From NCBI RefSeq assembly GCF_019008365.1, contig NZ_JAHHUL010000001.1, forward strand, positions 1-64,000: a DNA stretch of 64,000 bases. The letters run 5' to 3'. The notes under the pieces are model-generated. The model was not told the origin of the DNA, did no database searches, and worked only from the letters and a program-made list of their open reading frames with translations. The position numbers and the translations under genes were made by a program. Of the stretch, positions 2,860-48,823 are shown piece after piece. Source of the DNA: Phosphitispora fastidiosa. Its GTDB lineage: Bacteria > Bacillota > Thermincolia > Thermincolales > UBA2595. How positions within the stretch are numbered: the stretch's first letter is position 1; each line of letters begins with the position of its first letter.

Positions 2860-3385
2860 AAACCGCGCCAGCCGGTGGGGCGGGAAAGTTCATTTAGCTC
2901 CAATGCGATAGTACGCCAAGCAAAGCTTGGTACTGCCCATATCGAGTGTTGCGCCGAAACTGGTAACAGCTAGGTGAAGTGTACACAGAGAACCATGCAG
3001 GCCGTAGGGAGGCCGTACTCCTGAAGCACATTCAGCCCCGTCAATGGGTGCCTGGAGGGTCTGTCGGGGTCTAAGCACGCGGAGGCAGACTGATGACTTA
3101 CAGGGAGTCGGATTAACCCATATTACTCTGAGTGCGGGAAAGCCGTCCACATGGGGAAGGGGTTAACAGGAATATGCAGCCAGCAAAGGAAACATTAACC
3201 GGGCATGAAGGACTGGAGAAATTAATGCAAACCTCACTGCGGGGAATAGCATAGAAGGCAGAACAATTTCATTTAGTTTTGTCTAATCCTCAAGGCCGGG
3301 AATCTGTGCGGGGGGCGTCGGGCAACCGGCGTTCCTACCGTGACGATGAAATATTCAACCTGATTTGGGGTCAAAAAAAAGATGG
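2853..3385 (+). repeat. Group II intron fragment B (no ORF)
   Basis: The longest of the three copies. It shares with fragment C the leader from GAGCAAAAA through GCAAAGCTTGGTACTGCC, then the TGTTGCGCCGAAACTGG block, the AGGCAGACTGATGACTTA block, GTCGGATTAACCCATA and GGGAAAGCCGTCCACAT. Its tail (3330-3350) repeats the GGCGTTCCTACCGTGACG end of fragment A. The stretch just before a group II intron ORF normally looks like this, but no reverse transcriptase follows; a toxin-antitoxin pair on the other strand follows instead. Confidence 0.65.
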
Positions 3386-5952: not shown

Positions 5953-6651
5953 ATGCTGCTGGTTTTAAATTGTCTTGTTGAAGATGAAAGTGCAGATGAA
6001 TTTGATATGGCCATGTCAATACTGCTTAAGAACACTAATTGCGTTTACCAAACTTATAGAGCCAGTCAAACAGAAAGTATCGCAGATTTACATCGGTATT
6101 CCCATCTTCTGATATCAGGTTCTGAGGCCTCAGCTTTAGACGATAATTCATGGGATGAATTACTGGTTACAACCATTGACCGCTTTATTACAGACAAAAA
6201 GCCTGTTTTAGGTATTTGTTACGGGCATCAATTCCTTGCCAGAACAATTGTTGGTAAAGAATGTCTTAAGAAAAGAGAACTGCCGGAAATAGGGTGGGCT
6301 AAGATTTACAACTGTTCCAATGAGTTGTTTAGAAGCGTAAATGATGCAGTGAGTGTTGTCTTACATTATGATGAAGTAGCGTATTTAACTGACGATTTTC
6401 GGATAATTGCTTCCTCTCAATCTTGTCCGATTCACTCTTACCAGTATAAAGACCTCCCAGTCTGGGGAATCCAATTTCACCCCGAATACAATTTAGAACT
6501 GTCAAAGGAAATATTTGAGTTGTTTTCTAAAACTGAGCCAAAATTTGATCAGAGTTTCATTAACGATTTGGATAAGGAAAGTGACCTGGAAAATATTACA
6601 AAAGTCATTAAGAATTTTATCAATGTTAAGGAAACAGGTGGAAGCCGGTGA
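5953..6651 (+). CDS. Class I glutamine amidotransferase
   Basis: A 232-residue protein of the GATase1 fold. The nucleophile elbow GICYGHQF places the catalytic Cys at residue 89, and GIQFHPEYN gives His176 and Glu178, completing the triad. These enzymes take ammonia from glutamine (or cleave gamma-glutamyl bonds) for a partner synthase or substrate. No synthetase partner is next to it; the downstream gene is DUF1294, overlapping by 4 nt, so the true substrate is open. The ATG follows an AAAGGAG site. Confidence 0.85.
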   Translation: MLLVLNCLVEDESADEFDMAMSILLKNTNCVYQTYRASQTESIADLHRYSHLLISGSEASALDDNSWDELLVTTIDRFITDKKPVLGICYGHQFLARTIVGKECLKKRELPEIGWAKIYNCSNELFRSVNDAVSVVLHYDEVAYLTDDFRIIASSQSCPIHSYQYKDLPVWGIQFHPEYNLELSKEIFELFSKTEPKFDQSFINDLDKESDLENITKVIKNFINVKETGGSR

Positions 6652-6917
6652 AATTAATATATACTATTTTGATTATCGTAAATATTTGCGGATTTATTAC
6701 TATGGCTTATGACAAGTTTCGGGCTAAAAGCGGGGGGCGGCGTATTCCGGAAATTAATTTTTTCATTACCTCAGTGCTGGGCGGAGCTGCCGGAGTTTTT
6801 TTAGGCATGAGGATATTTCGGCACAAAACCAAGCATTATTCCTTTGTAATCGGAATTCCAATTCTATTTGGATTAAACATTTTAAGCGCTTATTTATTTT
6901 TTCAAGTATTTTCTTAA
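6648..6917 (+). CDS. DUF1294 membrane protein
   Basis: An 89-residue protein with a GTG start overlapping the upstream stop. It has an N-terminal membrane segment, the family signature MAYDKFRAKSGGRRIPE, then GGAAGVFLGMRIFRHKTKH, and a final membrane segment. DUF1294 proteins are small predicted membrane proteins of unknown function. Translational coupling to the amidotransferase suggests cotranscription, not necessarily shared function. Confidence 0.8.
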   Translation: MKLIYTILIIVNICGFITMAYDKFRAKSGGRRIPEINFFITSVLGGAAGVFLGMRIFRHKTKHYSFVIGIPILFGLNILSAYLFFQVFS

Positions 6918-6941
6918 AGTCCCAAACAAATTAAAGGAAAA

Positions 6942-6958
6942 TGTCGAAATGTGTCGAA
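6942..6958 (+). promoter_or_regulatory. Tandem Spo0A boxes upstream of the cytochrome operon
   Basis: Two perfect TGTCGAA heptamers at 6942-6948 and 6952-6958, exactly 10 bp apart and in the same orientation, as expected for a Spo0A dimer on one face of the helix. They lie about 45 nt upstream of the membrane spermidine-synthase-like gene. An almost identical arrangement lies at 10010-10026. Binding is inferred from the known 0A box consensus. Confidence 0.65.
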
Positions 6959-7003
6959 AGAAGGTATTTGTGAATCTTAACAACATTATGTAAGGTGTGG
7001 AAA

Positions 7004-8521
7004 ATGCAGGCGAAAAATAAGTCCGTAACAAAAAAGCAAGCTCAGTTTTTGGGTGTTCAGGGGATATGGGTCTTATACTTTACCTCAATAATATGCGGGG
7101 CCATACTGATGGCTTTGGAAATTGTAGGCGGCCGGCTATTGTCGCCGTTTTTCGGAGGTTCTGTCTATGTCTGGGGAAGTATAATTTTCGTTTTTCTGAC
7201 CGCGCTCAGCACTGGCTACTATGCCGGTGGGATTGCATCTGATAAAAAACCAAGTCTGTCTGTGCTGGCAGGCTTTATCGCTTTGGCTGGCATACTGATT
7301 CTGTTTATTCCCCCCCTGGTAGTTCCCTTTGTTAAATTTACTTTTGCTATTGGATTGGGTAATTACGGAACTCTGGTTGTAGCCATGCTGTTATTTTTTT
7401 TACCCAGTGTAGGATTGGGAATGGTGTCACCATACATAGTTAAGCTGGGGATAAAAGAATCAAGCCGGCTGGGAAATCTGGTGGGCAAGTTTTATGCAGT
7501 TTCAACTGTAGGGAGTATTATCGGTACCCTGGCAACCACATTTGTGCTGATCCCATGGTTTGGCATAAGGCATATTATCTTTGCTTTGGGTATTATCCTG
7601 GTTATCTTGGCAGCAGCTATTTTAATAATGAACAAAAGGCTGCCACAGACTGTCCTGGTCATCTGTCTGCTGGTATTATCACTTTTTGCAGTAACAACAG
7701 CTAACTCCAAAGAAAGCAGCCAAGGCGGAAAATTGATATACCAAAAAGAGACTGCTTACAATAATATCAGGGTAGAGGACTACTACAACCGTCGATACCT
7801 CTTGTTTAATGATACCGAACAGAGTGTTACCGATAAAAATCAGCCAAATGTACATATTTGGCCATATACCGAGCTGATGGATAATGCCGCCGGGTACTAC
7901 CGGCCAGATGCCACTGATATGCTGGTTATCGGAATAGGAGGCGGTACGGTTATCAACAGTATGCTGACGAAAAACCCCGATCTCTTTGTTGACGCTGTTG
8001 ACATCGACGCTGAGGTTATTAAAGTGGCATATGAATACTTTAACATGCCTGACAGTCCCAAGCTCCAGGCAACAGCCGGTGATGGCAGAGTCTTCCTGAG
8101 AGATAAAAAGAACCGGTATGATGTAATTATGGTTGATGCATATAACCGCACTAGCATTCCCTCACACCTGACCACCAGAGAATTTTTTACTGAGATGGCA
8201 AGCGCTTTGAACCCCGGTGGTATCATAATCTTTAATATTGTCAGCAGCATTGAAGGCGATTATAGCACGTTCTTTAAGAGCTTATTGCTTACTTCGCAAC
8301 AGGTCTTCCCTGAATACCGTCTATTTCAGGCAGAAACAGAAGACCCGTCTGATTTGGATAATTTAATCCTGATTGCCTCAAGGGATAAACTGGGTACGCC
8401 AGACCGACTTGCAAACCGGCCCGAATACAAGGGAAATATCGATCTCAGTAAAGCCATAGTGCTGACAGATGATTATGCTCCTGTAGACACTCTGGCATTA
8501 AAAATTATGTCACTTTACTAA
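7004..8521 (+). CDS. Membrane spermidine synthase-like protein
   Basis: About 505 residues. I chose the ATG at 7004 because GTAAGG lies 7-10 nt before it; a GTG at 6995 is in frame but sits inside that site. The N-terminal about 220 residues hold seven or so membrane segments (ILMALEIVGGRLLSPFFGGS is typical of fused MFS/spermidine-synthase proteins). The C-terminal half is a Rossmann methyltransferase-like fold with VIGIGGG, DAVDIDAEVI, AGDGRVFLR and MVDAYNRTSIPSHLTT. True aminopropyltransferase activity is unproven for this fused class; such genes often sit beside cytochrome c clusters. It precedes the 15-haem cytochrome by 22 nt, so the two form one operon. Confidence 0.8.
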   Translation: MQAKNKSVTKKQAQFLGVQGIWVLYFTSIICGAILMALEIVGGRLLSPFFGGSVYVWGSIIFVFLTALSTGYYAGGIASDKKPSLSVLAGFIALAGILILFIPPLVVPFVKFTFAIGLGNYGTLVVAMLLFFLPSVGLGMVSPYIVKLGIKESSRLGNLVGKFYAVSTVGSIIGTLATTFVLIPWFGIRHIIFALGIILVILAAAILIMNKRLPQTVLVICLLVLSLFAVTTANSKESSQGGKLIYQKETAYNNIRVEDYYNRRYLLFNDTEQSVTDKNQPNVHIWPYTELMDNAAGYYRPDATDMLVIGIGGGTVINSMLTKNPDLFVDAVDIDAEVIKVAYEYFNMPDSPKLQATAGDGRVFLRDKKNRYDVIMVDAYNRTSIPSHLTTREFFTEMASALNPGGIIIFNIVSSIEGDYSTFFKSLLLTSQQVFPEYRLFQAETEDPSDLDNLILIASRDKLGTPDRLANRPEYKGNIDLSKAIVLTDDYAPVDTLALKIMSLY

Positions 8522-8543
8522 ACATGTACCAGTGAGGTTGAAA

Positions 8544-9914
8544 ATGACAGGCATTTGGCCAAAAATAAAAAAAATAAAATTAAAGTCACGTACCAAGCTA
8601 CTAATGGCATTAGTACTATGCATCACGGTTATTCCCTGGTTTTCATTTGAGGCTCTTGAATACATAGAGCAGCCCGGATTTTGCAGCAAGTGCCATTCTA
8701 TGACTCCCCATTTCAGTTCATGGGCTAAGTCAGGCCACAGTCAGGTCAATTGCTACAATTGTCATGGAGACACGAAACTGAAGCTGCAGATGGATGATGC
8801 CGCTAAGGTTGGAGAGAAATATACTCTTTCCAGGGATATACTCACAACCAACAAGGCAGTCAAAGTTTTTGGTAAAATCATTGACTGGATGTCTGGGTAT
8901 GCTGAGGTTATTTCCGATTATACAGACAAAAAAAATAAGCAGCTAACGTTTCTTTTTGACATGTATACAGATACTTCTGACGATGTCAACAAACAGCGTT
9001 CCTGGAATAGCTGTGTCAATTGCCACGAGGGTTTCCTTTTTTCTCGTACGGGAAATGACCATTACGGCCATTTTAAGCACACTGGAAGTGGAGTGATTAC
9101 CTGCCGGCAGTGTCACGGAAACCTGGTGCATGAACAGAAGGCTGAGATTAGCAGGGAAGCATGTCTTAACTGCCATGACAAAGAAATTCCCAAACCTCCG
9201 TCACACGTCCCGGATTCTTTTAAATTAAGTCACGGCAAGGATTACCTGACAGAAAAGAATTGCAGCCTGTGTCATGTTCAGGGTATTCAGGAACCCATTT
9301 GTCAGGATTGTCACAAATTAGCGATGCCACATCCGGAAAACTACCGGGAAGGCCATATACCCGCCATAGCAGAGACCGGGGTGAGAACATGTTTTAACTG
9401 TCATCAGGAGGATTTTGATGAGCAACCGTCAGAATCGGCACAACCGTCCGCTTCCAACCCTTTGGACAGAGCATCGTGCAGTGTTTGTCACGGGGTCAAG
9501 ATGCCCCATACAGGTGATGTGTTAAAAGAGCATACAGGGCTGGCAAAAAGGTCCGGGCTGAAGAGTTGTTCATACTGCCATCAAACATCTCCGGGGCAAA
9601 AAGACATGGCTGTAGCCTGTACAGACTGCCACGGGATGGAAGTTCCGCATCCACAGGGCTTTCAATATAAGCATAAGGAGGTGGTTGCGGCAAAAGGTCA
9701 GGGTGTGTGCAGCTACTGTCACTCTCCAAAGAACCCGATTAATCCGGGAGCGCCATGGGCAAGTCCGAAATTCTGTCTGGACTGCCATATGAAGAATAAG
9801 CCTCATGACCCCGGCTTTAAAGCTGAACACCAGTTGGGGTTCTATGACCGCAACAGGTGCAGTACATGTCATCCGACGGAGAATCACTGTTATGAATGTC
9901 ATTTTGGGGAGTGA
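8544..9914 (+). CDS. Membrane-anchored 15-haem cytochrome c, NapC/NirT-type N-terminus
   Basis: About 456 residues with 15 CXXCH motifs (CSKCH, CYNCH, CVNCH, CRQCH, CLNCH, CSLCH, CQDCH, CFNCH, CSVCH, CSYCH, CTDCH, CSYCH, CLDCH, CSTCH, CYECH). One N-terminal membrane anchor (LLMALVLCITVIPWF) precedes a NapC/NirT-like start (GFCSKCHSMTPHF and a second haem site). NapC-type proteins take electrons from menaquinol; the many extra haems would carry them across the envelope. The ATG at 8544 follows GTGAGG by 6 nt; the GTG at 8532 is in frame but is itself part of that site. It is in one operon with the upstream membrane protein. The final substrate is unknown. Confidence 0.88.
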   Translation: MTGIWPKIKKIKLKSRTKLLMALVLCITVIPWFSFEALEYIEQPGFCSKCHSMTPHFSSWAKSGHSQVNCYNCHGDTKLKLQMDDAAKVGEKYTLSRDILTTNKAVKVFGKIIDWMSGYAEVISDYTDKKNKQLTFLFDMYTDTSDDVNKQRSWNSCVNCHEGFLFSRTGNDHYGHFKHTGSGVITCRQCHGNLVHEQKAEISREACLNCHDKEIPKPPSHVPDSFKLSHGKDYLTEKNCSLCHVQGIQEPICQDCHKLAMPHPENYREGHIPAIAETGVRTCFNCHQEDFDEQPSESAQPSASNPLDRASCSVCHGVKMPHTGDVLKEHTGLAKRSGLKSCSYCHQTSPGQKDMAVACTDCHGMEVPHPQGFQYKHKEVVAAKGQGVCSYCHSPKNPINPGAPWASPKFCLDCHMKNKPHDPGFKAEHQLGFYDRNRCSTCHPTENHCYECHFGE

Positions 9915-10009
9915 TGAAAGTTATAAAATATAGAAGAAGTTCAGAAAAACATGGAGATTAAATAAATTACTACACATTGTAGAAATAATTGGTTTTAGAA
10001 GAAGGAAAA

Positions 10010-10026
10010 TGTCGAAAGATGTCGAA
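10010..10026 (+). promoter_or_regulatory. Second tandem Spo0A box pair
   Basis: TGTCGAA at 10010-10016 and 10020-10026, again perfect and 10 bp apart, within a context (GGAAAATGTCGAAA) shared with the pair at 6942. It lies about 140 nt upstream of the TPR gene, so this second unit probably has its own promoter. The 250 bases between 9915 and 10167 contain no gene. Confidence 0.65.
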
Positions 10027-10167
10027 ATGGTGTTATGTAAAAGACATGGCAGAGACAAAATGGCAACAAATATTAGTTAGCGTATATTGCTGCAAAGCTT
10101 AGAAAAACGCGGTTGTGTCTGAGGTAGTGAACTATTGAACAATTAGTTTATTTAGGAGTGATAATAG

Positions 10168-10806
10168 TTGTCTGATTTATCGGTAAAACAGCAGAAAAAA
10201 ACATCTGTTCCGATTCTGGTTATAATTTTGGTTTTGCTGGCAGCTAATATAGTGATGGGATTTCTTACTGTTAAAAAGTATATTGCCAAGGAACCCACTG
10301 TTGACCCTCAAGTAGTACAACTCAAAAGCTATTTGGAAAAAGTCAATGCTAACCCCACTGACCTAAACAGCAGGTTACAGTTGGCTTATACCCTGCAAAT
10401 GATGAATAAGTATGACGAGGCTAAAGAGCAGTACATGGAGGTTCTCAAAATTGAAGAAGGCAACCTGGCAGCCAACTATAACCTTGGGGTCATGGCCCAA
10501 AAGGAAGAAAAGTTTTCCGAGGCTGAGGAGTATTACCAAAAGGTTTTAAAATTAAAAGCTAATCATGTTATTGCTGCCATCGGTCTTGGGGAAACTTACC
10601 TGACTCAGGGGAAATATGATGATGCTATCATAACTGCCGACAAGGTTTTGGAATTGGAACCTGGCAAGACCGATTTACACCTGCTTAAAGCCAGGGCTTA
10701 TGAACAAAAGGGAGATCCCGAAAAGGCGGCAGAACAGTACAATAGGGTTCTTGAATACATACCTGATGATCCGGAAGCAGTTGAGGGACTGGAACGACTG
10801 AAGTAG
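10168..10806 (+). CDS. Membrane-anchored TPR protein of the cytochrome cluster
   Basis: A 212-residue protein with a TTG start 7 nt after AGGAGTG. A single membrane segment (residues about 14-32, VPILVIILVLLAANIVMGF) is followed by four or five tetratricopeptide repeats (for example NKYDEAKEQYMEVLKIEEGN, KFSEAEEYYQKVLKLKANH, GKYDDAIITADKVLELEPG). TPR proteins act as docking scaffolds, and here probably on the outer face of the membrane during cytochrome assembly or in the complex. It is 21 nt upstream of the NHL gene. Confidence 0.85.
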   Translation: MSDLSVKQQKKTSVPILVIILVLLAANIVMGFLTVKKYIAKEPTVDPQVVQLKSYLEKVNANPTDLNSRLQLAYTLQMMNKYDEAKEQYMEVLKIEEGNLAANYNLGVMAQKEEKFSEAEEYYQKVLKLKANHVIAAIGLGETYLTQGKYDDAIITADKVLELEPGKTDLHLLKARAYEQKGDPEKAAEQYNRVLEYIPDDPEAVEGLERLK

Positions 10807-10827
10807 GAAATTTGAAAGGAGTTTAAG

Positions 10828-11898
10828 ATGAAGGGGAAACACAAGGCTAATATAATTATCGCAGTATTGACAGTGACCCTTGCCATGATGGCATATATAT
10901 ACATTAGTATTCCGGAATTCGGGGGTGGCGGCATTGTATCCGCCCAGAAAAAGAAAGTCGGTAAAATAGAATTTCTATTCGCGGTTTACGGACCGGGGAG
11001 GGGTATCCTTCCCAGCCTGAACAAACCAATGTCGGTGGCATCTGACAACGAAAACAATATTTACGTGTCTGACAGTGGGAATAACAGGGTAGTTGTTTTC
11101 AACCGTAAGGGCGAGTTTATGTTTGAATTCGGTTCCCGGGGGGTAGCTCACCCGAGGGCAGGCGAACAAGCTGACTGGAGTCCCGGGAAGTTTAATTATC
11201 CTTATGGAATTGATATCGATGAAGCAACAGGAAACATATTTGTGGCTGACCTCGTTAACAAGAGGATACAGATATTTGATAATCAGGGTAAGTTTCTCGA
11301 CTGGTTCCCCAAAGAGCCTTATGGCGGTTTTGCTGATGACATCTTCCCACTGGCCATGGATATCAGGAATGGAAAGGTATATGTAGCCAACCCGTTCAAT
11401 ATAGTAGTTTTCACCACTAAGGGCGAGTTTGTCAAGGACTTTGGTATGCCCGGAGACGGAGATGGCCAGTTTGACCGTCCTAACGGCATCGCCGCCGGGG
11501 AAGATGGGACCATTTATGTCGCTGATTCTAACAATTTGAGACTACAGGCCATAGACCCTGACGGAAAAGTAAAATGGGTGTATGGCAAGGTTATCAATGC
11601 CTTTGACAATTTCAACAGAAAGCCCCAGGAGTTTGAGCTGCCGCGTAATATTGCGGTAGGGCCTGATGGCAACATCTATGTGATTGACAGCTTCGATTTC
11701 AATATCAAAGTACTCTCCTCTAAAGGAAAGTTACTGGCTGAAATGGGCCAGCGCGGTGTTGATGACGGGACCTTTAATTTCCCCAATGGGATAGCGGTCA
11801 CCGGGGATAAAATCATCTATGTGGCAGATAAGGGCAATGATAGGGTACAGGCTGTCAGATTGACTGATTTTGTTATCGAAGATGAAAAAAAGGAATAA
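10828..11898 (+). CDS. NHL-repeat beta-propeller protein of the cytochrome cluster
   Basis: A 356-residue protein with an N-terminal signal anchor (IIIAVLTVTLAMMAYIYI) and six NHL-type blades, each with the pattern P.GIA...G.IYVAD..N.R...F (NIYVSDSGNNRVVVF, IFVADLVNKRIQIF, IYVADSNNLRLQAI, IYVIDSFDFNIKVL, IYVADKGNDRVQAV). It has no haem motif. It probably folds as an extracytoplasmic six-bladed propeller acting as an interaction platform for the neighbouring haem proteins. It lies between the TPR gene and the first 7-haem cytochrome. Confidence 0.85.
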   Translation: MKGKHKANIIIAVLTVTLAMMAYIYISIPEFGGGGIVSAQKKKVGKIEFLFAVYGPGRGILPSLNKPMSVASDNENNIYVSDSGNNRVVVFNRKGEFMFEFGSRGVAHPRAGEQADWSPGKFNYPYGIDIDEATGNIFVADLVNKRIQIFDNQGKFLDWFPKEPYGGFADDIFPLAMDIRNGKVYVANPFNIVVFTTKGEFVKDFGMPGDGDGQFDRPNGIAAGEDGTIYVADSNNLRLQAIDPDGKVKWVYGKVINAFDNFNRKPQEFELPRNIAVGPDGNIYVIDSFDFNIKVLSSKGKLLAEMGQRGVDDGTFNFPNGIAVTGDKIIYVADKGNDRVQAVRLTDFVIEDEKKE

Positions 11899-11963
11899 AA
11901 TTTTATATTTTAAATATTACCTGAAAATCAGGTAGCATCATTTTGAGAAAGGAGGTGAAAAAG

Positions 11964-13163
11964 ATGCGAAAAATTACTTTAGTTGCTGTAATGGCTGTTT
12001 GCATGGTTTTATTGACAGCAGGAGCCGCCCTGGCTGCTCACGGCGACAGTGGTGACCGTACCGGTTACGCTGAAGCAGGTGGATGTAGCGGGTGCCACCC
12101 TACCGGTGTTGACAAGCACACCTTTGGACCGCACGGCGGGTATACCTCCACCAGTAACAAGTGCCAGTTGTGCCATGAGGTTCACGATGCCGGCAGTGCA
12201 CGCTTATTGCCTGGTCAGACAGTTACAGATGCCTGCCAGCATTGCCACGACATTACCGGAACTGATACAGCTCCGTATTATGCCAGTGATCTTCCGAGTC
12301 CGGCTTACGGTTCAGATGTTAAGGCAGCCCACAGGGTATTTGGTACTATAGAAGGCACTGTATTCAATGATGTTTACGGTTCTACCACAATCCCTGGCGG
12401 TGATGCCACCAGCGGTGGTGACAGTGAACTTGATGTAACCGGTCAGGGCGCCCTTTCCGGGACTGACTTCACCTGTAACAGCTGCCATACACCTCATGCG
12501 ATTGCCGGCAATACTGTTGGTATTTACCTTGGCGAGTCTCATGTCAAAGCCACTACAAAAGATTTACAGGCTACGGAGTTGAAGCTTTACCTCACTAACC
12601 GGATCCTCAAGAGAACCGTTAACGGTGTCGATACCGGCGGTACATACGGTACCGAATGGTGTGCCGGTTGTCATCAAGGTCGTGATAACATGGGTGATGC
12701 CTTTAACCACCCGGTTGACGAGTCCGGTCTTGGCTATGATATGTTAGGCGCTGCTTTACCTGCCGGTGCAACCTGGCTTAACAGTTCAGATGAGGCAACG
12801 GTTGTTGACAAAGCTTATCTGTTTGTTGATACCGCAGGTCTGAATGGAATTGCTGACCTTGATGTAGATCCACGGACCAATATGTGGTATGCAATGGAAG
12901 GTACAGACCCGGTAAATGGTGATGCTGTCCGTCCTGACGGATTTGTTCCGTTCGCTGATTATGACGACGGCCTCGGTCCTAGCTGTCAGCAGTGCCATGC
13001 CAGTCCGCGTAACGTGGATGGGGCCTTCTGGGCAGGTTTAGACACAGCAGGTGATGGCGCTCCATCAAGAGGTACTTTCCCACACTTAAGTACCAACACA
13101 GCTCTGCTGGTGGAATCAGGTGATGACTTCTGCACCAACTGCCATAACTTGAACTTACCATAA
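11964..13163 (+). CDS. Secreted 7-haem cytochrome c
   Basis: About 399 residues. The ATG at 11964 is chosen because AAAGGAGGTG precedes it by 6 nt; the earlier TTG frame only translates that site. It has a Sec signal peptide ending near AALAAHGD. Seven CXXCH motifs (CSGCH, CQLCH, CQHCH, CNSCH, CAGCH, CQQCH, CTNCH) are spread over the chain, with haem-poor stretches rich in Gly and Asp. No membrane or wall anchor is visible, so it is probably exported. It shares the whole motif order with the next gene. Likely role: extracellular electron carrier or filament-type cytochrome (inference). Confidence 0.88.
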   Translation: MRKITLVAVMAVCMVLLTAGAALAAHGDSGDRTGYAEAGGCSGCHPTGVDKHTFGPHGGYTSTSNKCQLCHEVHDAGSARLLPGQTVTDACQHCHDITGTDTAPYYASDLPSPAYGSDVKAAHRVFGTIEGTVFNDVYGSTTIPGGDATSGGDSELDVTGQGALSGTDFTCNSCHTPHAIAGNTVGIYLGESHVKATTKDLQATELKLYLTNRILKRTVNGVDTGGTYGTEWCAGCHQGRDNMGDAFNHPVDESGLGYDMLGAALPAGATWLNSSDEATVVDKAYLFVDTAGLNGIADLDVDPRTNMWYAMEGTDPVNGDAVRPDGFVPFADYDDGLGPSCQQCHASPRNVDGAFWAGLDTAGDGAPSRGTFPHLSTNTALLVESGDDFCTNCHNLNLP

Positions 13164-13210
13164 GAATAACGACTTAAGAAGATTATTTTTAGAAACCAAC
13201 TTAATAAAAT

Positions 13211-13240
13211 CAAAACTGCAACCTGGAGGTTGCAGTTTTG
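13211..13240. terminator. Hairpin after the first 7-haem cytochrome gene
   Basis: Perfect inverted repeat with a 13-bp stem (CAAAACTGCAACC and its complement) and a TGGA loop. No strong T-tract follows except the TTTTG of the arm itself. A related hairpin follows the next cytochrome gene. Confidence 0.65.
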
Positions 13241-13308
13241 ATTTCCAAAACAAACATGGGAGTTATATCCTTTTAAACAAACATGTAATCCGGAAGAGAG
13301 TGAAAAAA

Positions 13309-14532
13309 GTGCGTAAGATTATTTTAGCTGCTGTCCTGATATTATTTACAGTGATACTGCCTTCAGAGGCCGCTTATGCGGCTCATTCTGACATTGGTGA
13401 TCGTACCGGCTGGGATGACCTCTACGAGGCCGATGGTTGTGACGACTGCCATGGCGGAACTGCTGCCAATAACTCAGGCTTGCACGGTAGATATACAGCC
13501 TCCAGCAGCAACTGCCAGATATGCCACCAGGTCCATAATGCCGGTAATGCGCGGTTGCTGCCGGCGCAGACAGTAACTGAGGTCTGCCAGTTCTGCCATG
13601 ATATTACCGGAACCAATCTGGCGCCGTACTTTACCAGCGACCTTCCGGACCCTGCCTATGGAAATGATGTTCAGGCCTCTCACCGGGTTTTTGGAGCTTT
13701 AAACGGCTTCAATTATAATTCAGAATATGGTTCCCCAACAATTCCCGGCGGTGATGCGGCTACCGGCGGAGACGCCCCGCTAAATACCGCCAGTCAGGGC
13801 AAACTATCAGGCACGGACTTTACCTGTGGCAGCTGCCATTCACCACATGGAATTAATGATAATACTGTAGATATTTACCTCGGTGAGTCTGCTGTCAAGG
13901 AGACCGAAAATGGCTTAAGCTCAGGACAGAGAAGAATCCACCTGACTAACAGGCTCCTTAAGAGAGAGATAAACGGGGTCGACACCGGCGGAACTTTTAG
14001 TGCCGCATGGTGTGCCGGATGTCATCAGGGGCGGATTAATAAGATGACAGTGAGTGACGGAGTATATTCTTATGACCATCCGGTTAATGGGACAGGGATG
14101 GCCTATGATCTGCTTGGTATTGGCAGGAATAACGCTTCTGAGTGGATTAATGGTTCAAGTTCTGCAGAAGTGATTAATAAAGAAAATGTGTTTATTGACA
14201 GCAATCCCGCCCCGGCAGGAAACGCCGATCTCAGCTTCGACCCGCGGAGCAACAAGTGGTATGTGATGAATGACACTGACCCGATGACCGGTGAAACGCG
14301 TCCTGATGGCAGTGTTCCTTATGATGCCGAAAATGGACCTGTTTGCCAGCAGTGCCATGCCAACCCGCGTGATGTCGATACGGCATTTTGGGCAGGATTT
14401 GATATAAAAGGAGCCGGTTATCCATCCAGAGGTACTTTTCCACACTTGAGTACCAACAGCGCATTGCTGACTGAGCAAAACGGTGATGACTTCTGCACCA
14501 ACTGCCACAACCCAAATAATTTCAGGATTTAA
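13309..14532 (+). CDS. Secreted 7-haem cytochrome c, paralogue
   Basis: About 407 residues. The GTG at 13309 (MRKIILAAVL) is chosen by analogy with the sister gene and because GGAAGAGAG precedes it by 8 nt; a GTG at 13300 is also in frame. Signal peptide ends near AAYAAHSD. Seven haem motifs in the same order: CDDCH, CQICH, CQFCH, CGSCH, CAGCH, CQQCH, CTNCH. The spacing and many blocks (SGTDFTC, NGVDTGGT, RGTFPHLSTN) match the upstream copy, so the pair arose by tandem duplication. It probably has its own promoter in the 70 nt between the hairpin and the start. Confidence 0.87.
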   Translation: MRKIILAAVLILFTVILPSEAAYAAHSDIGDRTGWDDLYEADGCDDCHGGTAANNSGLHGRYTASSSNCQICHQVHNAGNARLLPAQTVTEVCQFCHDITGTNLAPYFTSDLPDPAYGNDVQASHRVFGALNGFNYNSEYGSPTIPGGDAATGGDAPLNTASQGKLSGTDFTCGSCHSPHGINDNTVDIYLGESAVKETENGLSSGQRRIHLTNRLLKREINGVDTGGTFSAAWCAGCHQGRINKMTVSDGVYSYDHPVNGTGMAYDLLGIGRNNASEWINGSSSAEVINKENVFIDSNPAPAGNADLSFDPRSNKWYVMNDTDPMTGETRPDGSVPYDAENGPVCQQCHANPRDVDTAFWAGFDIKGAGYPSRGTFPHLSTNSALLTEQNGDDFCTNCHNPNNFRI

Positions 14533-14536
14533 GCAC

Positions 14537-14562
14537 AAACTGCAACCATAAGGATGCAGTTT
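14537..14562. terminator. Hairpin after the second 7-haem cytochrome gene
   Basis: AAACTGCA and TGCAGTTT arms enclose ACCATAAGGA. The arms match those of the hairpin after the sister gene, so the terminator was duplicated with the gene and then decayed. Confidence 0.55.
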
Positions 14563-14666
14563 TCTAGGTATCATCACTTATCTGCAACTGGAATTGGAAT
14601 AACCGGCATTCCTGCGATATATTGCAACCTCAGGGATGTGTAAAGCTTCCCTGAAGGAACAAACCA

Positions 14667-15143
14667 TTAAATTGAAGGGTGATTTGGCGGCGTGGATTCC
14701 TCATCAACGGATATCATCTTGCCTGTTTTTATACCATACACTTGCCATTTATCACCTTTTTTACGCAAATCAAAAGTTAATGTCACCTGATATTTTTCCG
14801 TTTTTACCTTTGTAATAATTATTGATTGATTGTTAACTTCGTCAACATGAGGGTCAGGCTCAAATGTCCAGGTTTTGATTTTACCGATAGGCTGCTGCTG
14901 TTGGGAGAGTTTTTCTTTAAATTTTTCACGATCTTGGGGCCAGGAACTGTAAACACTATATGTTACCGTCTCTTTTAGTTTCTCATAATCAAGGTCCCTG
15001 AGCCCTTCGAGGTATGTGTTAACTACCTGTTTTTGAATCGCTGCATCGGGTTTTTTAGGACCCGCAAACGGTAAACTACTACAACCGGTAAAAATTGAAG
15101 ACAGAATAAGTACAAGTATCACTGATAATATTCTTGACACCAT
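14667..15143 (-). CDS. Lipoprotein of unknown function
   Basis: A 158-residue protein with a type II signal peptide (MVSRILSVILVLILSSIFTG, lipobox FTGC, Cys20). The mature part has an NTF2-like look: a helix (AAIQKQVVNTYLEGLRDLDY), then strands alternating through VTLTFDLRKKGDKWQVYGI. Such folds are common in Clostridial sporulation or envelope lipoproteins. No partner gene is evident. An inverse Spo0A box lies about 50 nt upstream. Confidence 0.7.
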   Translation of the reverse strand: MVSRILSVILVLILSSIFTGCSSLPFAGPKKPDAAIQKQVVNTYLEGLRDLDYEKLKETVTYSVYSSWPQDREKFKEKLSQQQQPIGKIKTWTFEPDPHVDEVNNQSIIITKVKTEKYQVTLTFDLRKKGDKWQVYGIKTGKMISVDEESTPPNHPSI

Positions 15144-46878: not shown

Positions 46879-47031
46879 GTTTCAAACCCGTGAAGATATG
46901 AACAAAAAGTAAACAAACCTTTAACAGGCTGTAAAATGTACCTATGTCCGGATGGCGACGGTATTAAATGGGCAAAACCTTTCGTATTCATAATTAAGAA
47001 AATCCTATATCAAAGAAAACCCAATAAAAAT

Positions 47032-47165
47032 CTGCAGGGGCAAACCCGGTGAAAGCCGGGGACGCAAAGCTATGGGTCTAAGGCATTTTGCCACGACTGC
47101 CAGGCTGCCAGAGAACGTTTCAAATGCTGCCCTTCAGAGAAGAGATTTACAGTGAAGGGTTTTCT
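47032..47165 (+). ncRNA. Cyclic di-GMP-I (GEMM-I) riboswitch with terminator
   Basis: Aptamer at about 47032-47112 with GGGGCAAACCCGGTGAAAGC, GGGGACGCAAAGCTA, TGGGTCTAAGGCA and a P3 closing GCCAGGCTGCCAGA, an almost textbook GEMM-I. The terminator CCCTTCA (47130-47136) with TGAAGGG (47153-47159) and TTTTCTG follows. It controls the SLH-domain gene 62 nt further on. The rest of 46879-47031 holds no gene. Confidence 0.92.
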
Positions 47166-47227: not shown

Positions 47228-48823
47228 TTGGGAGGGATATTAGTGAGAAAAAATAAAATAATAGCAGTTTTGATGATTAGCGTATTTATCCTGATGACTG
47301 CGACAACCGGCGCCGTTGCCAAAAAGAGTATTGTTGATTTTAAGGATATGGATCAGGCAAAATGGGCGCAAAAACATGTCTATAAAATGAAGGCGCAGAA
47401 TGTTATCATGGGTTATCCTGACGGTTCTTTCCAGCCTAACAAACCCGTCACCCATGCAGAAGCTGTTGTCTTAACCCTGAGGGCAGCCGGACTCGAAGAA
47501 GAAGTGGCAGATTTAGATTCAGCTTCAGTGGTGCTGCCTTACAAAGATGCTGATAAGATTCCTGAGTGGGCGAAAAAACATGTAGCCTATGCTTATGAAA
47601 ACGGTTTCCTGGAAGAATCAATTTCGGGCAATTTTCAGTCAAACAAGGCAGCCAGCAGAGAATGGGTTGTAAAACTTATTATAAATGCACTGGGCTTGGA
47701 GGAAGATGCCGCTGAGATGCAAAATGTGCTGCTGCCCTTCAAGGATGCTGCTGAAATTTCTGATACAGGCTTTATAGCCTCGGCAATGAAAAACAATATT
47801 ATCAACGGTTTCCCTGACAAAACATTCAAGCCCAATAAACCTGTTACCAGAGCTGAGTTAGCAGTTATGCTGGGATCCTCAACAGATGAACTTCCCATCC
47901 CGGGGCAGATAAAGACTTACATTGACGGTACTGTAGTTGAAGTCTCCACTGATGACACAACTGTAGAAGACTCTATTACTGAGACAATCTACTGCCAGGG
48001 CACCATTACCCTTGATATAGGCGACGAAGATGAAGACGAAGATGAAGACGAAGATGAAGACGAAGATGAAGACGAAGATGAAGATGAAGATGAAGACGAA
48101 GATGAGGATGAAGATGAAGACGAAGATGAGGATGAAGATGAGGATGAGGATGAGGATGAAGAATCCGGAACAGTTACATATCCTGTCTCTGAAGATGCGC
48201 TGATATATGTTTACAACCAGGAAGCCGAACTCAGTGATGTGGCAGTCGGTGTAACCGCCAAACTTGTAGTTGACAAAAACGGTGTTGCTGTTTACATCGA
48301 GGTGGCTCCGGTAACTGTAAAAGGCATTGTCTATGCTGTTGATGCAGATGATAATAAGATAGAGATTGTGGAAAAAACCTGGGGTCAGGAAAAGGAACGT
48401 AACAGAAACGCAAACAAGTTAATGGGCTCTCTGAAAAATACCAAAAAATCAGGTGAACAGCCCAAAGAACAGGAACAGGAAAAAAACATTACTGAAACAA
48501 TTGCCATTACGGCAGTTCCTGTTGAATACTCAGTCACAGATGATGCAGCTATTACCTTAAACGGTGATAATGCTGAGCTTGAGGATTTGGAGGCAGGGGA
48601 TATCGTTATCCTGACTCTGAATGATGACAATGAGGTAACAACCATAAAGGCCTATTCAATGCCAACCCAAACAATTGTTCAGGATGATGAAAATAATGAT
48701 GAAGACGAAAACGATGAAGATGATGAAGATGAAGACGACAATGATGATGATGACGATGACGTATCAGCCAATGTAAATATTCAGAATGATAATGGTAAAA
48801 AAGGCTACAAACAAAAAATGTAA
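47228..48823 (+). CDS. S-layer homology protein with long Asp-Glu repeat
   Basis: 531 residues, GTG start after GGGAGG. Signal peptide (IIAVLMISVFILMTATTGAVA). Three SLH modules at about 33-92, 95-160 and 165-225 (for example NVIMGYPDGSFQPNKPVTHAEAV) bind wall polymers. A run of alternating Asp and Glu follows at about residues 266-312, encoded by GAAGATGAAGAC-type units, then two beta-rich segments, and a second acidic tail (about 485-515). It is surface-attached and strongly negative, so it could bind cations or haem proteins. Controlled by the c-di-GMP riboswitch. Confidence 0.9.
   Translation: MGGILVRKNKIIAVLMISVFILMTATTGAVAKKSIVDFKDMDQAKWAQKHVYKMKAQNVIMGYPDGSFQPNKPVTHAEAVVLTLRAAGLEEEVADLDSASVVLPYKDADKIPEWAKKHVAYAYENGFLEESISGNFQSNKAASREWVVKLIINALGLEEDAAEMQNVLLPFKDAAEISDTGFIASAMKNNIINGFPDKTFKPNKPVTRAELAVMLGSSTDELPIPGQIKTYIDGTVVEVSTDDTTVEDSITETIYCQGTITLDIGDEDEDEDEDEDEDEDEDEDEDEDEDEDEDEDEDEDEDEDEDEDEDEESGTVTYPVSEDALIYVYNQEAELSDVAVGVTAKLVVDKNGVAVYIEVAPVTVKGIVYAVDADDNKIEIVEKTWGQEKERNRNANKLMGSLKNTKKSGEQPKEQEQEKNITETIAITAVPVEYSVTDDAAITLNGDNAELEDLEAGDIVILTLNDDNEVTTIKAYSMPTQTIVQDDENNDEDENDEDDEDEDDNDDDDDDVSANVNIQNDNGKKGYKQKM

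Follow-up and report, generated by a model that had tools for sequence, protein, structure and literature searches.

Introduction

How could electrons leave a bacterium whose membrane lies behind a thick Gram-positive wall, and which genes would build the path? The molecular proposal that we found for this passage is CwcA, an OmcS-like polymer known as a homology model and as an insoluble recombinant protein. Here, we address the question at a run of multihaem genes in the 4.09-Mb draft genome of Phosphitispora fastidiosa (assembly GCF_019008365.1, our G000), within a stretch of 64,000 nucleotides (contig NZ_JAHHUL010000001.1, positions 1 to 64,000; hereafter the window). Six genes at 6995–14532 share one direction and encode a spermidine-synthase-like membrane protein, a 15-haem membrane-anchored cytochrome, a TPR protein, an NHL beta-propeller and two exported heptahaem cytochromes, 7haemA and 7haemB; a lipoprotein gene of opposite direction converges on them. 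Profile searches and genome comparisons suggest that this module is probably a self-contained electron-export unit, in which the heptahaem proteins are OmcS/CwcA-type subunits that would stack into a wall-crossing haem chain.

Results

Two exported heptahaem cytochromes resembling OmcS

The three cytochromes of the module contain 29 CXXCH haem sites, as a preliminary description of this DNA had counted: 15 in the protein encoded at 8532–9914 and seven each in 7haemA (open reading frame 11943–13163) and 7haemB (13300–14532, + strand, starting at GTG 13300 or 13309). Shuffling the residues 2,000 times left on average 0.14, 0.02 and 0.02 motifs in the respective proteins (at most 2, 1 and 1), and nowhere else in the window, with all frames checked, does one open segment hold two or more. 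The 7haemA frame is open from TTG 11943, and its likely start is ATG 11964 (11964–13163, + strand), preceded by the Shine-Dalgarno sequence aaaggaggtga; removal of the predicted signal peptide would leave a mature protein from about 12036. 7haemA and 7haemB, for which a signal peptide is predicted as well, are 60% identical. The host genome is rich in multihaem genes, with 82 forward and 37 reverse matches to two haem codon motifs spaced 30–60 bases apart and none to the reversed pattern.

A profile of 26 heptahaem sequences, Actinomycetota included, retrieved 22 PDB matches at E ≤10, with OmcS first (E 3.2e-11), followed by MtrA (6r2q, 1.1e-8) and OmcE (7tfs, 1.3e-5). The 6r2q chain A, labelled cystathionine beta-synthase, is given as the MtrA structure in PMC12203936, and 7tfs is identified as OmcE in PMC12954529; two recent cytochrome entries, 28pb and 9yuq, were matched too. 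With a narrower profile of 14 sequences, just OmcS (1.2e-4) and OmcE (0.02) fell below E 0.1. As a control, the profile of the 15-haem protein (A4) had NrfH as its sole match at E ≤0.01, so OmcS is not matched by every multihaem profile. The preliminary description had called for comparison with OmcS/OmcZ-like and Thermincola cytochromes: OmcS proved to be the best match, no chain of OmcZ, which has eight haems versus seven here, appeared at E ≤10 with either profile, and the Thermincola protein CwcA is a likely paralogue (see below). No OcwA or OmhA chain (9 or 11 haems) was among the matches of the 26-sequence profile at E ≤10. Neither was an MtrCAB-type porin found among the nine proteins scanned at 5953–15143, and the MtrA match is weaker than that of OmcS. 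The 34-residue match L065 was excluded from both the A5 alignment and the tree, and the G009 sequences were excluded from A5 and included in A1 and the tree.

Haems 2–5 of the heptahaem proteins are collinear with OmcS haems 1–4, and the alignment takes in the haem-3 motif CHDPH/CHTPH and a His-Pro that follows haem 4. Three residues beyond the first OmcS-type haem motif stands a histidine that aligns with OmcS His16 (H81 in 7haemA, H79 in 7haemB) and is invariant in 26 of 26 sequences (H50 of A5 is H81 of 7haemA). We take OmcS His16 to be the ligand of haem 5 in the next subunit. In OmcS, haem 505 (haem 5) is ligated from a neighbouring molecule (PMC6584659). Six distal histidines are invariant in the 26 sequences, and a seventh, near the mature N-terminus, is present in members of the Thermincola lineage and absent from most Actinomycetota. 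By this alignment the heptahaem family seems to combine an OmcS-type core of six haems with an additional haem at the N-terminus; two distant family members at locus L062 have six haems.

A putative quinol-side anchor

The 15-haem protein (8532–9914, + strand) starts with a membrane segment and carries CXXCHxM at haem 1, the methionine of which is presumably a haem ligand; this residue, M57, is invariant in seven of seven sequences. In the profile search against the PDB, residues 22–83 match the NrfH structure 2j7a (E 1.3e-11), and the protein matches Cytochrom_NNT at E 8.4e-7. It is no ordinary tetrahaem NapC/NrfH protein, having 15 CXXCH motifs and an NrfH equivalog score of 39.3 against a cut-off of 134.2. 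From the membrane segment, the CXXCHxM motif and the NrfH match over residues 22–83 we infer a quinol oxidase, putatively of menaquinol, that would anchor the module on the quinol side. This supports the preliminary description in placing a quinol-side membrane multihaem protein beside exported cytochromes, and the lineage is one related to metal-reducing Gram-positive bacteria. The first gene is not supported as an anchor of the electron path: position 7004, given in that description, falls inside the gene at 6995–8521 (+ strand), whose product is a membrane protein of the MFS_SpdSyn family (NF037959, E 2.4e-78) without any haem site and hence not an electron carrier. This accessory gene of the module adjoins the NapC gene in four of the five genomes with a full module.

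TPR, NHL and lipoprotein partners

The TPR protein (10168–10806, + strand; TPR_1 E 2.9e-23) and the NHL propeller (10828–11898, + strand; NHL E 9.4e-35), both with Pfam scores far over the cut-offs, contain no haem site and no cysteine. Each has a hydrophobic segment at its start, with no cleavage site evident; in the TPR protein this segment covers about residues 15–35. The NHL gene is the most conserved of the module, with 61–92% identity over eight sequences. We reject a scaffold inside the electron path, as the preliminary description had it, for two proteins devoid of haem and cysteine, and since both have an N-terminal membrane segment, a role in assembly or placement fits better. Like the lipoprotein and the spermidine-synthase-like protein, they most likely help to assemble or place the subunit rather than carry electrons.

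The functional unit also takes in the small lipoprotein gene (14667–15143, − strand), convergent with 7haemB. It occurs in five of five full-module genomes, sitting between 7haemA and 7haemB in G009, and twice in G005. Its predicted structure has a predicted local distance difference test score (pLDDT) of 60, and Foldseek returned mostly NTF2-like entries at the top, with E values no better than 4.3e-3 and TM values to the query of up to about 0.4, a hint that the lipoprotein may have an NTF2-like topology.

Published loci offer a parallel in gene content, drawn from their descriptions. In Geobacter, maturation and secretion of OmcS have been linked to an eight-gene block beside GSU2501, an omcS-like gene (PMC12977616). 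By gene number, the YVTN-type propeller gene KN400_2445 lies between the lipoprotein gene KN400_2442 (GSU2497) and omcS (KN400_2449), and the cytochromes GSU2494/2495 belong to the same region (PMC3495685). A propeller, a lipoprotein and large cytochromes beside an OmcS-like subunit would, by analogy, support the assembly role. Clusters of Dethiobacter contain NHL and TPR genes for which a part in assembling complexes has been suggested (PMC10376724), and NHL genes also occur in clusters of Geoalkalibacter and Desulfovibrio ferrophilus (PMC12016550, PMC9769857).

Conservation of the module

A search of 61 genomes with 7haemB (E 0.001) matched 14, and full-length or nearly full-length relatives with at least 40% identity occur in six (G000, G001, G002, G003, G005 and G009); G004, 91% complete and of the same family, yielded none. 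The order NapC15–TPR–NHL–7haemA–7haemB is kept in all five genomes that have both subunits (G000, G001, G002, G003 and G009), which belong to two families within a single taxonomic order. Because the surrounding genes differ, for instance in G003 and G009, the module behaves as a unit. G005 has two tandem NapC17–TPR–NHL–7haem sets, a lone 7-haem gene and a third TPR–NHL–7haem set, with spermidine-synthase-like and lipoprotein genes downstream. Behind this third set (L044, 7990–13158) come two proteins whose signals are twin-arginine-like and which contain 2 and 3 CXXCH motifs, suggesting a different electron partner there.

Comparison of G000 with G002 shows purifying selection on all six genes, the ratio of nonsynonymous to synonymous substitution ranging from 0.07 (NHL) to 0.17 (NapC), with 0.10 for the spermidine-synthase-like gene. 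In the tree, A and B part before the two families do. G009 is represented in the B clade, which has support of 99/99, and the G009 A sequence stands beside the A and B clades with weaker support (82/60). A and B have thus long been kept apart, which argues for different roles.

A perfect, terminator-like stem-loop follows 7haemA (13212–13239, no strand assigned), and a second copy with two mismatches to the pattern follows 7haemB (14536–14563, likewise unstranded); allowing up to two mismatches, these are the only two sites in the whole genome. The first is found in five of five genomes, with a conserved stem and a variable loop. The second is found in G000, G001 and G002, and by the same pattern in neither G003 nor G009. 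We considered whether the hairpin separating A from B could be an attenuator that sets their ratio and dropped this idea: there is a second copy behind B, and in G009 the copy after A faces the lipoprotein gene, which is convergent, so that a bidirectional terminator, duplicated, is the simpler reading. Most simply, gene and terminator were duplicated together. An Rfam scan revealed no riboswitch inside the cluster, and neither the promoter scan (23 versus 20.6 +/- 4.3 in shuffles) nor the terminator scan (13 versus 9.5 +/- 3.6) rose usefully above the shuffled sequence.

Paralogous modules and the Thermincola CwcA locus

The host genome has nine genes matching the NHL protein, each within 2.3 kb of a multihaem gene. 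Five TPR–NHL–cytochrome sets can be recognised, one in the window (7 and 7 haems) and four with a 6-haem cytochrome, on C17 (about 98–102.6 kb), twice on C6 (110.6–113.3 kb and 132.4–135.4 kb) and on C23 (32.2–36.8 kb, together with a 12-haem NapC-like gene). The four hexahaem proteins (profile A6) have OmcS as their first PDB match (1.5e-8), and their profile aligns with the first half of the heptahaem profile over 142 columns at an hhalign probability of 99.5, against 59 for the 15-haem profile. A plasmid search with one of them gave no match. In the tree the hexahaem proteins form separate clades on branches of 1.9–3.4, and given such long branches their placement relative to the heptahaem proteins is unsure.

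One of these sets belongs to a larger locus (C6:106024–113322) that encodes, in order, 10-haem, 12-haem, 17-haem, TPR, NHL and 6-haem proteins. In Thermincola ferriacetica, N-terminal sequencing showed that the 10-haem ImdcA (Tfer_0070) begins with GIRD, and CwcA (Tfer_0075), a six-haem OmcS homologue, has been proposed to stack through the wall (PMC7911101). The 10-haem protein of the C6 locus contains MGIRDKFKF, and the six genes spanned by Tfer_0070–0075 fit, by their number, the six genes here. By these signs the C6 locus at 106.0–113.3 kb matches the published ImdcA-to-CwcA locus, which makes the window module a paralogue of the published wall conduit. CwcA itself, a hexahaem encoded with ImdcA, has its counterpart on C6, and the window subunits are heptahaem. 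Elsewhere in this genome (C17:86541–97998, C6:115634–126964, C5:95132–102367 and C18:7066–12777) lie very large multihaem open reading frames of up to 3060 amino acids and 42 CXXCH motifs; some adjoin small membrane proteins that, by sight, resemble ResB/ResC haem-delivery pairs.

Relatives beyond Bacillota

The genome collection holds relatives at 20 loci, six of them from Thermincola-like bins and 12 labelled Coriobacteriia, Coriobacteriaceae, Actinomycetes, Actinomycetota or Actinobacteria; one belongs to an unclassified bacterium (L062) and one is the short match L065. The order TPR–NHL–7haem occurs in L052 and L055, the latter with a 14-haem NapC-like gene downstream, and NHL–7haem in L053. 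At L054, L056–L061, L063 and L064 no TPR or NHL gene stands beside the cytochrome within the DNA examined; several contigs are too short to judge. The unit thus occurs in two monoderm phyla, Bacillota and Actinomycetota, and not beside every relative. L062 (1–4159) shows the order hexahaem–NHL–hexahaem–NapC-like, its first gene cut by the contig end, and may represent a simpler version of the unit that lacks the N-terminal haem.

Other features of the window

Two c-di-GMP-I riboswitches lie outside the cluster. The first (22830–22915, + strand, 77.6 bits) is upstream of genes that by sight are feoA/feoB-like (23361–23582 and 23618–25585), so that ferrous iron uptake looks to be under c-di-GMP control in this cytochrome-rich genome. 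The second (47029–47112, + strand, 76.4 bits) precedes a gene at 47228–48823 whose product appears by sight to be a surface protein of SLH-like type that carries a long Asp/Glu repeat. Two marginal group-II-intron-like matches (1500–1664 and 2908–3079, + strand), barely above the gathering score, lie among transposase-like open reading frame fragments.

Discussion

What path would the module provide? The 15-haem membrane protein would oxidise menaquinol at its NrfH-like N-terminus, and its haem string would lead the electrons off the membrane to the exported A and B subunits. These would stack end to end, with H81 of A or H79 of B filling a haem of the next subunit, and the resulting haem chain would cross the wall and perhaps reach beyond it. 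The TPR, NHL, lipoprotein and spermidine-synthase-like proteins would assemble or place the subunit and carry no electrons. The preliminary description had proposed a polymerising or wall-spanning role for the heptahaem proteins, and this is supported by OmcS as their best PDB match and by the wall polymer proposed for the paralogue CwcA. Its appeal to haem-poor Gly/Asp regions carries less: a spacer of 103–106 amino acids does separate haems 5 and 6, but its Gly and Asp content (28% in A, 20% in B) is unremarkable and makes a weak argument, the real evidence being homology.

Several observations weigh against a stacked, wall-crossing chain. OmcS was not matched when 7haemA was searched as a single sequence, similarity to OmcS is undetectable past haem 5, a third OmcS stretch in the 26-sequence profile is out of order, and the control was one profile (A4) of different architecture. 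A and B have seven CXXCH motifs rather than the six of the OmcS type. The AlphaFold model of mature 7haemA from 26 sequences was left unused at a pLDDT of 38.5 and a predicted TM-score of 0.29, so no interface was seen. The T. ferriacetica pathway also requires a separate periplasmic protein, PdcA (PMC7911101), beyond the proteins compared here. Moreover, the cluster contains neither a terminal reductase of the OcwA/OmhA type nor a porin, so that the complete path envisaged in the preliminary description is not supported.

Could the heptahaem proteins act without polymerising? Descended from the OmcS/CwcA type, they might be monomeric or dimeric carriers or terminal reductases of the wall or surface, with the TPR and NHL proteins docking them to their membrane partner. 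In members of the Thermincola lineage each chain has seven haems and as many candidate distal histidines, so that self-sufficient monomers are conceivable; the proteins are also acidic and soluble-looking and lack a wall anchor, and most Geobacter homologues of OmcS have no known wire (PMC12977616). We nonetheless hold this to be rather unlikely, as the best PDB matches are filament proteins, the histidine at the OmcS position said to bind the neighbour's haem is invariant, and CwcA expressed alone was insoluble (PMC7911101). Less likely still is a module that runs the opposite way, or both ways, with Fe(II), metallic iron or a partner cell as the source of electrons: the direction of flow cannot be derived from sequence alone and quinone reduction by a NapC-type protein is possible in principle, but no MtoA-type gene is in the cluster and, of the relatives that have been studied, the nearest use Fe(III) and anodes for respiration (PMC7911101). 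It is highly improbable that the cluster encodes an ordinary soluble multihaem reductase of the nitrite, sulfite or tetrathionate type. Such enzymes often receive their electrons from NapC/NrfH-like donors, and the A6 hexahaem profile weakly matches an eight-haem nitrite reductase (E 0.0035). However, the three cytochromes have no CXXCK or other unusual haem motif, and the heptahaem profile, with OmcS first, returned no octahaem reductase, OcwA or OmhA at E ≤10.

The export unit with stacking subunits that we favour is in part familiar, since OmcS-like wires across a Gram-positive wall have already been proposed (CwcA), and NapC-type donors and NHL or TPR genes near multihaem genes are known. 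What looks new is the pair of seven-haem subunits with TPR and propeller proteins as fixed partners: within the open-access literature, which leaves most subscription papers and all preprints outside, we found no heptahaem OmcS/CwcA-type member, conserved A/B pair or regular TPR–NHL–OmcS-like unit. A second, paralogous module with a subunit pair and TPR–NHL partners makes it testable whether monoderms have OmcS-type filaments and what assembles them. A bolder picture, unlikely as it stands, is that A and B are non-interchangeable subunits of one two-component heptahaem filament built by a dedicated membrane TPR–NHL machine, and that this machine is a standard unit of monoderms in Bacillota and Actinomycetota, several per cell with different wire subunits. 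In the host genome, the TPR–NHL pair flags likely wire loci better than the cytochrome sequence, which evolves too fast for reliable annotation.

How does the module compare with known systems? The clusters of Dethiobacter alkaliphilus are similar in placing NHL and TPR genes beside CymA-like and exported multihaem genes, while a fixed TPR–NHL–OmcS-like unit or a heptahaem pair is not described in the text available to us (PMC10376724). The secreted heptahaem SmhC of Carboxydothermus groups with OmhA/OcwA-type proteins (PMC7829351). With the quinol dehydrogenases NrfH and NapC, the 15-haem protein shares the N-terminal membrane segment, the first two haems and CXXCHxM, but these have four haems, whereas the remainder of the 15-haem protein is a haem string unlike NrfH. 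The OmcS nanowire of Geobacter sulfurreducens (6ef8, 6nef) resembles the heptahaem proteins in its collinear haems 1–4 and the His16 position, and its locus in the beta-propeller gene and large cytochromes near omcS (PMC3495685, PMC12977616). In contrast, the window proteins have an extra N-terminal haem, an unalignable C-terminal part and a NapC-type operon partner, and belong to a Gram-positive host without an outer membrane. Closest is the ImdcA–CwcA pathway, likewise with an OmcS-like exported cytochrome in a related lineage, and the matching C6 locus shares the TPR–NHL–cytochrome order of the window. There, a 10-, 12- and 17-haem set precedes one six-haem subunit; in the window, a single 15-haem NapC-type protein is combined with two seven-haem subunits, and the separate clades and long branches of the tree indicate that the two modules are paralogous rather than orthologous.

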